A stretch of 64,000 bases of DNA from Pseudobdellovibrionaceae bacterium. Its GTDB lineage: Bacteria; Bdellovibrionota; Bdellovibrionia; Bdellovibrionales; Bdellovibrionaceae. Position 1 is the stretch's first letter. The number at the start of each line of letters is the position of its first letter. The notes under the pieces were generated by a model. That model had not been told where the DNA came from and did not search any database. It saw nothing but the letters and a program-made list of their open reading frames with translations. Positions 1-7,066 of the stretch are shown here, in pieces. The stretch lies in assembly GCA_019637915.1 (NCBI GenBank), contig JAHBUV010000001.1:1396565-1460564 (forward strand), written 5' to 3'. The position numbers were made by a program, and so were the translations under genes.

Positions 1-1000
1 CCGCGTCCTGGAAGGCATGTTGCTGTCCGGCGATCCCGGCACGGGCCTGATCCGCGTCGCCGTCGGCGGGCGCAGTTTCCGCATGACCCAGTTCAACCGC
101 GCCGTGGACAGCCGCCGCCAGGTGGGCTCATTGATGAAACCCTTCGTCTTTCTCACCGCCCTCGGGGAAACCCGCAAGGACGGCACGCGCTTCACGCCCA
201 TCACTTTGCTGAACGACGAAAAGTTCTCGCTGAAATACGACGCTCAGACATGGAATCCCGCCAACTACGAGGGCAAATACTTCGGCGAAGTGCCGATGTT
301 TTTCGCGCTGAAGAATTCCCTCAACGCCGCGACGGCGCAGGTGGGGCTCGAGGTCGGCCTCGACAAGGTCATCACGACGGCGCAGCAGGCCGGCGTGGAA
401 TCGCCCTTGAAACCCCTGCCGTCCCTGACCCTGGGCGCTTTCGAGATCGCGCCCAAGGAAGTGCTCGGCGCCGCCATGACCTTCGCCTCCCTGGGGCAAC
501 GGCCGCGCCTGTCCTTCATCCGCCGCGTGGACTACGGCGACGGCGACACCTTGTACGAGCACGATCCCGCGCCCGCCCCGGCCCTGGATCCCGTCAACAC
601 GTCCGTGCTCGTCGGCATGATGAAACAAACGGTGATCTCGGGCTCGGCGCGCGCGGCGCCGCTTCTGGGCTTCACTCACCCGGCGGCCGGGAAAACCGGC
701 ACCACCAATGACAACCGCGACACCTGGTTCATGGGCTTCACCCCCCATGTCGCCACCGTGGTCTGGGCGGGTTACGACGACAACACGGTGACGAAACTCA
801 CCGGCGCTTCGGGCTCGGTGCCCATCTGGACGGAATTCATGAAAAAAGTGGCGACGCGTTTTCCCGCGGATGATTTCCCCTGGCCGGAGGGCACGGTGAA
901 AGTCACTCTGGACCGAAGCGATCTGGAAGCCCTGCATGCCTTGCGGGAAAAAGATCCGGACACGGTGGAACTGATTTTCGCCGAGGGCACTCAGCCCTAA
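1..1000 (+). CDS. Class A penicillin-binding protein, C-terminal transpeptidase part (5' truncated by window edge)
   Basis: This is the C-terminal part of a bifunctional peptidoglycan synthase. The reading frame is open to the left edge, so the glycosyltransferase domain and N-terminal membrane anchor lie outside the window. The penicillin-binding motifs are visible in order: a catalytic SxxK as GSLMKPF (Ser codon at 128-130), SxN as SLN near 317, and KTGTT near 692. The stretch AVGGRSF followed by FNRA resembles the PBP1b/PBP1a transpeptidase entry. The enzyme cross-links peptide stems in the periplasm and is the target of beta-lactams. Its TAA stop (998-1000) overlaps the TAG of the convergent hydrolase gene. 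Which class A subfamily it belongs to cannot be decided from this fragment. Confidence 0.9.
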   Translation, partial: RVLEGMLLSGDPGTGLIRVAVGGRSFRMTQFNRAVDSRRQVGSLMKPFVFLTALGETRKDGTRFTPITLLNDEKFSLKYDAQTWNPANYEGKYFGEVPMFFALKNSLNAATAQVGLEVGLDKVITTAQQAGVESPLKPLPSLTLGAFEIAPKEVLGAAMTFASLGQRPRLSFIRRVDYGDGDTLYEHDPAPAPALDPVNTSVLVGMMKQTVISGSARAAPLLGFTHPAAGKTGTTNDNRDTWFMGFTPHVATVVWAGYDDNTVTKLTGASGSVPIWTEFMKKVATRFPADDFPWPEGTVKVTLDRSDLEALHALREKDPDTVELIFAEGTQP

Positions 1001-2239: not shown

Positions 2240-3547
2240 ATGGAATGGCGACGACACAAAGACATCTTCGCGATGAAAGAAGGCTCCCGCCCCGCGGTGG
2301 CCCTGCACGCGCGCAACCTGCAGGTGGCCGAGCTTTCCGCGGAGGCCTGGGATTCCATGTCCCCCGTCACTCTTCTGGACTCCGCCCCGGTGAGCCTCCC
2401 CTCCCCGACGGAAGGCCGCGAGGAGCTCGAGGAGTGGAACGGCTCCGACGATCCCCGCTCCACCGCCGATCGCAATGATTTCTCGGTCCGCAGCCTGACC
2501 CTGAACGTGACCCAGATCTGCAATCTGCACTGCACCTACTGCGCGGCCGGCGGTGACGGCACCTACGGCGATCCCGTGCGCGACATCTCCATCGAGAACA
2601 CCCTGCCGCAATTGCGTTTCTTCATCGAGAAGATCCCGGCGGGCGGTCACTTCCACATCGCCTTCCTCGGCGGCGAGCCTTTGCTGTACCCCGACACGCT
2701 GCTGGCCCTGGGCCGGTACGCCCGCGAGACCGGCGAGGCCCGCGGCGTGAGCGTCAGTTTCAAAGTCACCACCAACGGCACCCTGATCAATGACAAAGCC
2801 CTGCGGGCCCTGACCGACCTGGGCTGCCACGTCACCGTCAGTTTGGACGGGCCGGCGGAAATCAACGACCGCCAGCGCCTGCAGAAAAACGGCCGCGGCA
2901 GCTTCGAAGCCGCCTTCCAGGGACTGCAGCGCCTGATGGCGCGCAAAAGCAAGCTCGCCAGCCTCGGCGTTCACGCCGTTTTCAACGAGAAAAACCTCGA
3001 GGTGGAAAAAGCCTGGGAATTCCTCTCGCCCCTGCCCGTGGATTACATGGAGTTCACTTACTCCGTGAACGGCGCCAACCACGAGGCGACCTCGACCTAC
3101 AATCAGCAGCTGGCCCGCGTCCTGCGCCTGGCCTGGAAGCGCGGCGGGGAGCAGGAACTGCGCCGCATCTCCAACGTGCGCGAGATCTTCGACCGCCTCG
3201 ATCAGCAGCGCCGCCGCCTGAACCACTGCGGCCTGGGCAAGAGCATGATGGTGGTCGACGCCCGCAACCAGCTGTGGAGCTGCCCCTGGACCGTCGGGCG
3301 CGCCAATGACCGCCTGGGGACGGGCACCGTCCTCGACGAGGACCGCCTGGCCGTGCATCAACGCTCGCAGATCGAGGTGAACGAGTGCGGTTCGTGCTGG
3401 GCGCGCTTCCTGTGCGGCGGCGGCTGCTCCTTCATCCACGGCAGCACCGACGGATTCTTGCGCGACAAAAAAAGCGACTTCTGCGAACGCACGCGTTTTT
3501 TGATCGGCGCGAGCCTGGCTTATTACCACCGCGCGAGAGCGCTTTGA
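2240..3547 (+). CDS. Radical SAM/SPASM peptide maturase
   Basis: This 435-residue enzyme carries the radical SAM CX3CX2C motif as CNLHCTYC (Cys94, Cys98, Cys101). A full SPASM-type cysteine set follows: Cys330, Cys348, a CX2CX5CX3C block (383, 386, 392, 396) and Cys415. Family knowledge: SPASM proteins bind two auxiliary 4Fe-4S clusters and mostly modify ribosomally made peptides or a partner protein. Residues 1-85 form an N-terminal extension with no obvious RRE. I chose ATG 2240 because GAAGG sits 8 nt upstream and because earlier in-frame starts run into the divergent gene. A 32-residue peptide gene starts 43 nt after the stop, and a sensor kinase and response regulator follow. Maturase function is well supported; substrate and chemistry are inference. 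Confidence 0.88.
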   Translation: MEWRRHKDIFAMKEGSRPAVALHARNLQVAELSAEAWDSMSPVTLLDSAPVSLPSPTEGREELEEWNGSDDPRSTADRNDFSVRSLTLNVTQICNLHCTYCAAGGDGTYGDPVRDISIENTLPQLRFFIEKIPAGGHFHIAFLGGEPLLYPDTLLALGRYARETGEARGVSVSFKVTTNGTLINDKALRALTDLGCHVTVSLDGPAEINDRQRLQKNGRGSFEAAFQGLQRLMARKSKLASLGVHAVFNEKNLEVEKAWEFLSPLPVDYMEFTYSVNGANHEATSTYNQQLARVLRLAWKRGGEQELRRISNVREIFDRLDQQRRRLNHCGLGKSMMVVDARNQLWSCPWTVGRANDRLGTGTVLDEDRLAVHQRSQIEVNECGSCWARFLCGGGCSFIHGSTDGFLRDKKSDFCERTRFLIGASLAYYHRARAL

Positions 3548-3590: not shown

Positions 3591-3689
3591 ATGAACGACA
3601 AGAAGCACGTGAGAATCCTGGCCACCAAGCCGCTGCCGAGCCCCGTGATCATGGCCCCGCCCGGCGAAGGCTGCATCCCGATCAAATAA
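3591..3689 (+). CDS. 32-residue peptide, candidate substrate of the radical SAM maturase
   Basis: A short ATG-to-TAA frame has a strong ribosome binding site (GGAAGG, about 7 nt before the ATG). The peptide starts MNDKKHVRIL, continues with a Pro-rich middle, and ends GEGCIPIK with a single cysteine at residue 28. It has no signal peptide and no membrane segment. It sits between the SPASM maturase and the sensor kinase, and only one base separates its TAA from the kinase ATG, which has no good ribosome binding site of its own; translational coupling is therefore likely. Context and composition (charged N-terminal half, Gly/Cys/Pro C-terminus) suggest a RiPP precursor with its modified part at the end. 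I do not recognise the family. It could instead be a leader peptide controlling kinase expression. Confidence 0.6.
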   Translation: MNDKKHVRILATKPLPSPVIMAPPGEGCIPIK

Positions 3690-3690
3690 G

Positions 3691-5571
3691 ATGGCGATCC
3701 CTCCTTCCCTCGACGCAGCCGAAACCCCCGGCCCCCGCCGGAAGAAGATCCTTTTCGGGATCCTGCGGCTCGCTCTCGCCCTGGGATTGGCGGGATTCAT
3801 CGCCCAGATCAAGCTCGATTACATCGAGGCTTATTTCTACGACCTGCGCACCCGCATCCGCCCCGCGCCGGCGACGACGGGGCACCTTGAAATGATTTTT
3901 GTTGATCCCGTCACCATCCGGGACCTCAAACGCTCCCCGGGCTTCGGCGCCCACGCCCGGCTGCTGGAAATCCTGTCGACGGCGTCGGCCCGCGCCATCG
4001 TTTACGACCTCGATCCGACGCAGCTCAAAGGCTCCGACCAGGACCGCGCGCGCTTCCTGCGGGTCGCCGCCGGCATGCCGAACCTGCTCTTCCTCACCGA
4101 CGACCTGGAGATGAACGGCGAGGAGGGCAAACTGCGTTTCCCCGCCCCCTTCGACAAACTGCGCGTCGCCCCGGGCCCGAAAAGCAGCGACACCAGCAAC
4201 TTCGCCAAAGACGGGGTGACCCGGCGCTTTTTGATCTCTTACCAGGACCGGCCCACGGCCCACGTGGAGCTCGCGCGCCTGTTCCGCCCGCGGATCGCGG
4301 ACACGGAAAAAGTCCGCGGCCGGTTCTCCTTCCTCGGCACCGAGCAGTCCCACATCAACTTCCGGCCGCCGCGCTCCTACCCCGAGTCCTCCCTGTCGGA
4401 CCTGATCGACGGGCACGAGAGCGCCGCCCGCTTCCGCGACCGCATCGTGCTGATCGGCCAGGACACCCAGATGTCGGAGCGCGACTACGCCCGCACGCCC
4501 TACTCGCGGGAAAGCGTCGGCATGCGCTCGGCGGAGGTCCACGCCAACATCATCGACACCCTCCTGCGCAACGATGCCCCGGCGCGAGCGCCCCTCTGGC
4601 TGAACCTGTTTTTCATCGCCGTCGTTTCCGTGCTCACCGTGCACGTCGTGTTCGCCATGAAGCCCACGCGCGGCCTCGTCATCCTGGCTTTCGCTTTCGC
4701 GGGCTTCACCTTCCTGAATTTCTTTTTGTTCTGGCCCTTCGCCTGGTGGGTGTCCCTCGCCCACCCGCTCCTGGCCTTTTTCCTGTGCTACTACTTCTTC
4801 ATCCCCTACCGCCTGATCATCGAGAACCGCCGCAGCTGGGAGATCTACCAGAAGCACCGTCTGCTGCAGCAGGTGGAGGAGCTCAAGACCAACTTCATCT
4901 CGATGATGTCCCACGACCTGAAAACGCCCATCGCGCGCATCCAGGGGATGACCGACATCATCCAGCGCGATCCGACGCCCCTGTCGAACGGGCAGCGCGA
5001 GGCCCTGGACACCATCCGCGCCTCCGGCGACGACCTGCTGAAGTTCATCAACGCCATCCTGCAGTACGGCCGCATCGAGGCCCAGCAGGTGCCCGTGCGC
5101 CGGCAGTCCCGCGACATCAACGTCATCCTACTGGACGTGATCCGCCGGCACGAATTCCTGGCGAAGCTCAAACGCATCCGCCTGATCGACGAGCTCGAAC
5201 CCCTGTTCCCCATCCCCGTCGATCCGGAACTGATGGGACAGGTGTTCTCGAACCTCATCGAGAACGCCATCAAGTACAGCCCCGAGGACACGAAGGTCCT
5301 GATCTCCTCCGAGGAGAAAGACGGCCGCGTCGTCGTGCAGATCGCCGACCAGGGACCCGGCATCCCCCCGGACGAGATCGCCCACGTGTTCATGAAATTC
5401 TTTCGCAGCAAAAACGCCCGCAGTTCCACCGTCAAGGGATCGGGTTTGGGGCTCTACCTGGCCCGCTATTTCACCGAGATCAACGGCGGCACTCTGACTG
5501 TAGAATCTTCGTATGGCCAAGGTTCCACTTTTACGATAGAACTGCCCTTGCAACACACACCAGGGGAGTGA
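3691..5571 (+). CDS. CHASE2-like membrane sensor histidine kinase
   Basis: The 626-residue protein has one N-terminal membrane helix (about residues 27-43) and an extracytoplasmic sensor of about 250 residues. The sensor has CHASE2-like features (FYDLRTRIRP near the start, IVLIGQD near its end). Further hydrophobic helices follow between about 302 and 375. The cytoplasmic part has HisKA with SHDLKTP (His408), an N-box NLIENAIKYS, G1 DQGPGIP and G2 GSGLGL. All catalytic boxes look intact, so it should autophosphorylate. It starts 1 nt after the peptide gene and ends 1 nt before the response regulator ATG, so peptide, kinase and regulator form a single unit. The ligand is unknown; the modified peptide is a candidate by context only. 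Confidence 0.88.
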   Translation: MAIPPSLDAAETPGPRRKKILFGILRLALALGLAGFIAQIKLDYIEAYFYDLRTRIRPAPATTGHLEMIFVDPVTIRDLKRSPGFGAHARLLEILSTASARAIVYDLDPTQLKGSDQDRARFLRVAAGMPNLLFLTDDLEMNGEEGKLRFPAPFDKLRVAPGPKSSDTSNFAKDGVTRRFLISYQDRPTAHVELARLFRPRIADTEKVRGRFSFLGTEQSHINFRPPRSYPESSLSDLIDGHESAARFRDRIVLIGQDTQMSERDYARTPYSRESVGMRSAEVHANIIDTLLRNDAPARAPLWLNLFFIAVVSVLTVHVVFAMKPTRGLVILAFAFAGFTFLNFFLFWPFAWWVSLAHPLLAFFLCYYFFIPYRLIIENRRSWEIYQKHRLLQQVEELKTNFISMMSHDLKTPIARIQGMTDIIQRDPTPLSNGQREALDTIRASGDDLLKFINAILQYGRIEAQQVPVRRQSRDINVILLDVIRRHEFLAKLKRIRLIDELEPLFPIPVDPELMGQVFSNLIENAIKYSPEDTKVLISSEEKDGRVVVQIADQGPGIPPDEIAHVFMKFFRSKNARSSTVKGSGLGLYLARYFTEINGGTLTVESSYGQGSTFTIELPLQHTPGE

Positions 5572-5572
5572 C

Positions 5573-7066
5573 ATGCTGAAAGTCCTCGTCGTCGATGATG
5601 ATCAGGGTTTGCGACGGGCGGTGACTTCCGCCCTGCTCAGCACCGGCCGCTTCGAAGTCGACGAGGCCTTCGACGGCGTCAACGCGCTGGAGAAATTCAA
5701 AGCCGCCGCCCCGAAACACGACATCGTCATCCTCGACGTCGACATGCCCCGCCTGAACGGCCTCGAAGCCCTGCGCCAGATCAAGGAGAACGAACCCGGC
5801 ACCATCGTGCTGATGCTCACCGCCCACGCCACCGTGGCGGACGCCGTGCAGGCCGTGAAGGACGGCGCCTTCGATTTCCTGTCGAAGCCGATTTCCGCCG
5901 ACGGGCTGATCGCCCTCGTCGACCGCGCCATCCAGGCCCACGCCCTGATCTCGAACATCGCCGCCTCGAGCCCCGTCATGGTCGAGGCCGGGCGCAAGAT
6001 CATCGGCAACACCTCGCAGATGCAGAAGGTGTTCAACATCATCCACAAGCTCGCCAAGGTCGACACGCCGGTCCTGATCCGCGGCGCTTCCGGCACGGGC
6101 AAAGAGCTCGTCGCCAAGGCCATTCACTTCAACTCGTCCCGCAAGGACGGCAAGTTCGTGGCCATCAACTGCTCGGCCATCCCCGAGAACCTCTTCGAAT
6201 CCGAGCTCTTCGGCCACGAGAAGGGCTCCTTCACCGGCGCCCACGAGCGCAAGATCGGCAAATTCCAGTTCGCCGAGGGCGGCACGCTCTTCCTCGACGA
6301 GGTCGGCGACATGCCGCCGCTCATGCAGGTGAAGATCCTGCGCGTGCTGCAGGAAAAGCTCTTCACCCCCGTCGGTTCGAACCGCGAGATCTCCAGCAAC
6401 GTGCGCATCATCGCCGCCACCAACCGCCCGCTGGAGGACATGATCAAAACCGGCGCGTTCCGGGAGGACCTGTTTTACCGCCTGAACGTCGTGCCGATTT
6501 TCCTGCCGAACCTGGCCGAGCGCAAAGACGACATCGAGCGCCTGATCCAGATCTTCATCAAGAAGTTCAACGAGACCCACAAAAAACGCGTCACCGGTTT
6601 GTCCGCCGACGCGTTGAACGTCTTGAGGCGCCACGAGTGGCCCGGCAACATCCGCGAGCTGGAAAACGTCATCGAGCACGCCTTCGTTCTCGAACCCGGC
6701 CACGTCATCACCCTCGCCTCCCTGCCGGAATCCGTGCTGTCGAGCTGTGGCATCGACCTCCTGCAACTGCCCGATCAAGGGACGAGCGCCGAGATGCCCC
6801 GTCCCGCGCCGGTCGCCTTCGAGGGCGGCCGCGACGTGACGGATGAAACGGACGGGGACGAAACCCCGGAGCCCCTCGACGGCGCTCTCGCCCAATCCAT
6901 GGACTTCAACGCCCAGAAAGAGGCTTTCGAGAAGGAATTCATCATCAAGGCCTTGAAGACCTTCAAGGGCCGCATCAATCAGACGGCCCTGCACGCCAAC
7001 ATCCCGAAAAAGACTTTGCTCCGCAAAATCGAAAAGTACGGCATCGTCGCCAAAGACTACATCTAG
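5573..7066 (+). CDS. NtrC-family sigma-54-dependent response regulator
   Basis: The 497-residue regulator has a receiver domain (VVDDDQ acidic patch, phosphoacceptor Asp55 in LDVDMP, and the conserved Lys in SKPI). An AAA+ sigma-54 activator domain follows with Walker A GASGTGKE and Walker B FLDEVGD, and the protein ends in a Fis-type helix-turn-helix. The sigma-54 contact loop reads GSFTGA (from residue 218) instead of GAFTGA. A Pro/Asp/Glu-rich linker separates the AAA+ domain from the DNA-binding domain. It is the evident partner of the preceding kinase: the kinase stop and this ATG are 1 nt apart, and a GGGGAG ribosome binding site lies inside the kinase end. Targets should have -24/-12 promoters. 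Confidence 0.92.
   Translation: MLKVLVVDDDQGLRRAVTSALLSTGRFEVDEAFDGVNALEKFKAAAPKHDIVILDVDMPRLNGLEALRQIKENEPGTIVLMLTAHATVADAVQAVKDGAFDFLSKPISADGLIALVDRAIQAHALISNIAASSPVMVEAGRKIIGNTSQMQKVFNIIHKLAKVDTPVLIRGASGTGKELVAKAIHFNSSRKDGKFVAINCSAIPENLFESELFGHEKGSFTGAHERKIGKFQFAEGGTLFLDEVGDMPPLMQVKILRVLQEKLFTPVGSNREISSNVRIIAATNRPLEDMIKTGAFREDLFYRLNVVPIFLPNLAERKDDIERLIQIFIKKFNETHKKRVTGLSADALNVLRRHEWPGNIRELENVIEHAFVLEPGHVITLASLPESVLSSCGIDLLQLPDQGTSAEMPRPAPVAFEGGRDVTDETDGDETPEPLDGALAQSMDFNAQKEAFEKEFIIKALKTFKGRINQTALHANIPKKTLLRKIEKYGIVAKDYI

Follow-up and report, generated by a model that had tools for sequence, protein, structure and literature searches.

A conserved single-cysteine peptide encoded between a radical SAM/SPASM maturase and a CHASE2 histidine kinase in Bdellovibrionaceae, a candidate RiPP precursor

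The stretch of DNA analysed here, 64,000 nucleotides in length and called the window below, encodes at 3591..3689 of its plus strand a peptide of 32 amino acids, MNDKKHVRILATKPLPSPVIMAPPGEGCIPIK*, which is preceded by the gene for a radical SAM/SPASM peptide maturase and followed by that for a CHASE2 sensor histidine kinase. The frame is a real, functional gene, as judged from its conservation, the constraint on its codons, and the comparison of its motif with shuffled DNA; quite probably, it encodes a radical SAM RiPP precursor which is modified at its Cys and the product of which regulates the adjacent kinase. Precursor and maturase would constitute a new family, near-universal in Bdellovibrionaceae and present also in Bdellovibrio bacteriovorus, which carries the peptide (G063; kdesi record L159); the modification is predicted from the CteB-like enzyme. 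The initial annotation of this DNA holds up in part: an unannotated gene with its Cys as the target of a radical SAM enzyme draws strong support from its conservation, from the constraint on its codons and from its occurring together with the maturase (the bond being a prediction), while a leader peptide serving to couple the translation of the kinase, also considered there, was dismissed as the main role.

Cys28 is the only Cys among the 32 residues and lies near the C-terminus, as had been recognized at the outset. The stop codon (TAA, 3687-3689) is separated by one base from the kinase ATG at 3691 (TAAGATG), which agrees with the earlier reading, and so do the ribosome binding sites: the ATG of the peptide is preceded by GGAAGGTGAGAAC, a moderate Shine-Dalgarno sequence matching AGGAGG in four of six positions, whereas the kinase ATG is preceded merely by TGCATCCCGATCAAATAAG and has no Shine-Dalgarno sequence. 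Across loci, Shine-Dalgarno sequences ahead of the peptide are moderately enriched (27/64 versus 13% in shuffles). The longest hydrophobic run in the peptide is four residues and no signal peptide is evident. A search for a second copy in the 3.3-Mb genome returned as sole other match an unrelated frame of 214 amino acids (E 0.92), and 55 of the peptides gave no credible match to a known precursor family in Pfam or NCBIfam; as the gene is short and belongs to no Pfam or NCBIfam family, annotations may lack it.

The maturase is encoded in 60 of 66 Bdellovibrionaceae genomes, each time in single copy, and it is followed by a peptide of 27-64 amino acids in all 58 loci of the family where the DNA is complete at this position (the count omits L075, the locus of which is interrupted by a contig end; peptide starts in relatives were picked by eye). 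A broken frame in relatives that keep the flanking genes, which would have spoken against the gene, was looked for and is seen in none of the 58. Searching relatives with the peptide, as the initial annotation had proposed, gave weak matches (E 0.002-0.02), which lie in the same gene slot in three other genomes. The nearest named relative is a Bdellovibrionaceae MAG of the same genus (JAHBUU010000009.1), the maturase of which is 62% identical. Over 16 disjoint pairs of peptide genes, differences were counted at 235.6 of 387 synonymous and at 175.4 of 1236 non-synonymous sites; this codon-level conservation, likewise proposed as a check, amounts to a dN/dS of 0.126, and purifying selection (dN/dS ~0.13) acts on the codons of the peptide. 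The window's own nearest pair is near saturation, with approximately 15 synonymous changes at 21 sites and 28 non-synonymous ones at 72.

Aligned, the peptides consist of a basic N-terminal segment (HIKKVKP), a variable middle rich in Gly and Pro, and a C-terminal core. In the window the first corresponds to KHVRILATKPL (3603..3635, plus strand), a putative maturase-recognition segment, and the last to PGEGCIPIK (3660..3686, plus strand) with the invariant Cys28 and Pro30. Cys and a Pro at position +2 to it are present in all 57 tabulated peptides of the family, the Cys being single in 56 of them, and Gly is found at −3 in 37. Exactly four residues past the Cys, 31 of the 57 terminate, mostly with Arg or Lys, and 21 of the 26 longer peptides have Gly at +4, from which the core is derived as C-x-P-x-[G/R/K]. 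No acceptor residue around the Cys is conserved among the family peptides; a conserved Asp or Glu adjoining it (GEGC in the window) was considered and rejected, with Glu at −2 in only 17/57. Of the 59 real gaps, 50 contain the strict motif, compared with a single one among 2950 dinucleotide-shuffled gaps; the remaining loci deviate slightly from it and were recognized by reading. Shuffles, conservation and dN/dS together rule out a chance ORF. Related Cys peptides are found in 19/19 readable loci of two other families of the same order; in some, the core reads C-P rather than C-x-P (CPER, CPEL), L228 is without the Pro and L219 has two Cys. One locus (L066 of genome G080) has the precursor twice in tandem directly behind the maturase, and the two copies, MNTKTQHIKKVKPVKAIATSTTGLSCIPIG and MKTTTTKHVKKVKPSKKSSSSTTGLACIPSGLPNSSSN, have diverged. 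Another (L145, CALQIT020000002.1) is a Bdellovibrionaceae locus in a MAG labelled Streptomyces griseus, a title which is evidently wrong.

The maturase gene (2240..3547, plus strand) encodes 435 amino acids with a Pfam Radical_SAM domain (2.6e-19); that it is a radical SAM/SPASM maturase had been missed by the initial annotation, as had the conserved N-terminal motif and the invariant Cys-x-Pro of the peptides. The CX3CX2C motif (C94, C98, C101) is invariant in 51 homologues, as are the seven cysteines C330, C348, C383, C386, C392, C396, and C415, which form the SPASM signature (CX2CX5CX3C plus flanking Cys) and are shared with CteB, the best solved relative (6.7e-45; identity 20-22%). The AlphaFold model (pLDDT 90.6) matches CteB over residues 7-433 (Z 35.3, rmsd 3.2), and the match to the anSME structure starts at residue 82 (Z ~30). 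The model begins with at least three strands followed by helices and, within the whole-model alignment, is aligned to CteB from residue 7, so that its N-terminal region appears RRE-like. None of the NCBIfam equivalog cut-offs is reached, be it PapB (2.8e-54; 184.6/340), SCIFF (126.2/425) or QhpD (137/453); therefore, the enzyme is taken to be a new family near these three.

Within the phylum, the maturase is confined, at the threshold used, to three families of one order, and the kinase is distributed more widely. The peptide motif is present in 0/20 kinase loci without maturase; G007, a member of the family with a genome 99% complete, has kept kinase and regulator and lacks both the maturase and the Cys peptide. 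On the kinase tree, a quick tree with some long branches, the maturase-less label requires at least five changes, four of them forced by well-supported branches, which argues that the association recurs and does not stem from one single event; together with the lack of the motif in loci without maturase, this means that gains and losses took maturase and peptide together. The peptide tracks the maturase and not the kinase, and the pairing of maturase and peptide is well supported. Some kinase loci without maturase (L255, which is that of G007, L258, L259, and L261) have small, often basic ORFs without Cys just ahead of the kinase, for example MKSLKKKLRKSTPVSKIAFSGLKAD and, with an AGGAG site, MKKMNQENQAPSFAQSWNGNGKPPFNLDPNGNGGGGTKPPFT of G007; these may be equivalents of the peptide that undergo no modification.

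The kinase (3691..5571, plus strand; Pfam CHASE2 2.9e-27, HisKA, HATPase_c) is the proposed target of the product, and it is followed by a sigma54-activating response regulator (5573..7066, plus strand; Pfam Response_reg, Sigma54_activat, HTH_8), which adjoins the kinase in nearly all loci. In 78/78 loci where the kinase was seen, the genes for maturase, peptide and kinase follow one another without interruption on the same strand, also in L073 and L099, where the response regulator has been relocated; other neighbours (PBP, MBL, ileS) differ between loci. The first placement is explained by descent from one insertion, and the unbroken contiguity suggests a functional link, but adjacency alone is no proof of signalling. 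A penicillin-binding-protein-like gene, judged as such by eye, lies upstream of the kinase in the window (17-1000) and in several maturase-less loci (L256-L274), which suggests that the maturase-peptide pair was inserted into an older arrangement of PBP, kinase, and regulator.

From these data the following scenario may be drawn. The basic N-terminal segment of the HIKKVKP type would be bound by the RRE-like region of the maturase, which is likely, and the enzyme would modify the C-terminal core at its only Cys, which is very likely. By analogy to CteB, the modification is probably a thioether formed within the peptide. Either at full length or after trimming, the product would act as a dedicated regulator of the CHASE2 kinase and, through it, of the sigma54 response regulator; control of the kinase by the product has a somewhat better than even chance of being correct. 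In many lineages the kinase/regulator pair is present and the peptide missing, so that the pair must respond to some other input as well. As no signal peptide or hydrophobic stretch is evident in the peptide and no transporter was noted at the locus, the product may act from within the cytoplasm just as well as be exported to a periplasmic CHASE2 sensor; this is the least secure step of the scenario.

The chemistry could also be that of anaerobic sulfatase maturases, which the enzyme matches (TIGR03942, 1.5e-23) and with which it shares the SPASM enzyme fold; C-x-P-x-R, the sulfatase maturation motif, is present in 17/57 peptides and C-x-P in all, so that the maturase might make formylglycine and thereby an aldehyde-bearing peptide. 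This is improbable: Arg is absent from the core of most peptides, the presumed substrate is here an adjacent peptide, and the RRE-like N-terminus and the full-length match favour CteB. Moreover, Asp277 of anSME, the catalytic Asp that follows Cys276, has no counterpart in the maturase, where Pro349 follows the aligned Cys, and neither has the ligand Cys261 of anSME. In CteB, auxiliary cluster I (Aux I) leaves a site open, while in anSME it leaves none, Aux I being fully ligated there, including the extra Cys261 (PMC6231123). A thioether is preferred over formylglycine because the maturase has the Cys set of CteB without the additional Cys and Asp of anSME.

As to the role of the product, the RiPP may be real and yet no ligand of the kinase; it could be secreted, with an antibacterial or intercellular function, or be a redox cofactor, the adjacency of the kinase being operon history. 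The maturase is younger than the kinase/regulator pair and more narrowly distributed, and many radical SAM RiPPs are antimicrobials or cofactors (PMC8326336). Still, no gene for a transporter, a protease, immunity or a cofactor was noted in the locus, the precursor gene is near-universal, single-copy, and, unlike diversifying antimicrobials, under strong purifying selection, and it stays next to the kinase although insertions occur elsewhere, which makes this alternative rather unlikely. A coupling leader, the amino acids of which matter little, would account for the one base between stop and start in the window and for a kinase without ribosome binding site, but it is very improbable: the spacing between peptide and kinase ranges from overlapping to >100 nt (median ~33) and is mostly tens of nucleotides in relatives, Cys and Pro are invariant under codon constraint, and the peptide is absent where the maturase is. 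Variable spacing and codon constraint also rule out an RNA element as the main role.

Among known systems, the precursor and maturase proposed here resemble the SCIFF/CteA peptide and CteB of Clostridia (ranthipeptides), where likewise a radical SAM and seven-Cys SPASM maturase, with an RRE to which the N-terminal region described here may correspond, adjoins a short Cys peptide that is near-universal in its own clade; SCIFF, reported in quorum sensing (PMC8326336), differs in having six Cys in approximately 45 residues, while here there are one Cys, a C-x-P core, and a kinase in the locus. PapB and QhpD, the best NCBIfam matches, form thioethers from Cys to a side chain, but the peptides described here lack a conserved Asp/Glu acceptor. 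A single thioether from a single Cys is known from the ranthipeptide NxxcA of Streptococcus orisratti (Cys23-Asn20; PMC8326336); its acceptor Asn is at −3, a position mostly occupied by Gly in the present family. AgrD/AgrC also combine a small Cys peptide with sensor kinase and regulator, and the frequent ending four residues past the Cys may be set beside them, but a radical SAM maturase takes the place of AgrB, and AgrB (PF04647) was found in 0/4 genomes searched. An earlier description of the locus was not found in the open-licence literature on Bdellovibrio RiPPs and CHASE2 kinases.

If the proposed scenario is true, this is a RiPP class with maturase, peptide, and sensor as one fixed module, and a family with a single invariant Cys-x-Pro core would allow probing how SPASM enzymes choose an acceptor when none is conserved. 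Bdellovibrio is a model bacterial predator, the decision of which when to attack, grow or leave is poorly understood. It is conceivable, though the chance is somewhat less than even, that the single-Cys RiPP is a core-genome modified-peptide signal, that is, a dedicated ligand of the CHASE2 kinase/sigma54 system, which possibly times the predatory life cycle; a near-universal modified-peptide gene tied to a sensor kinase would be a concrete and testable candidate signal for predation decisions.
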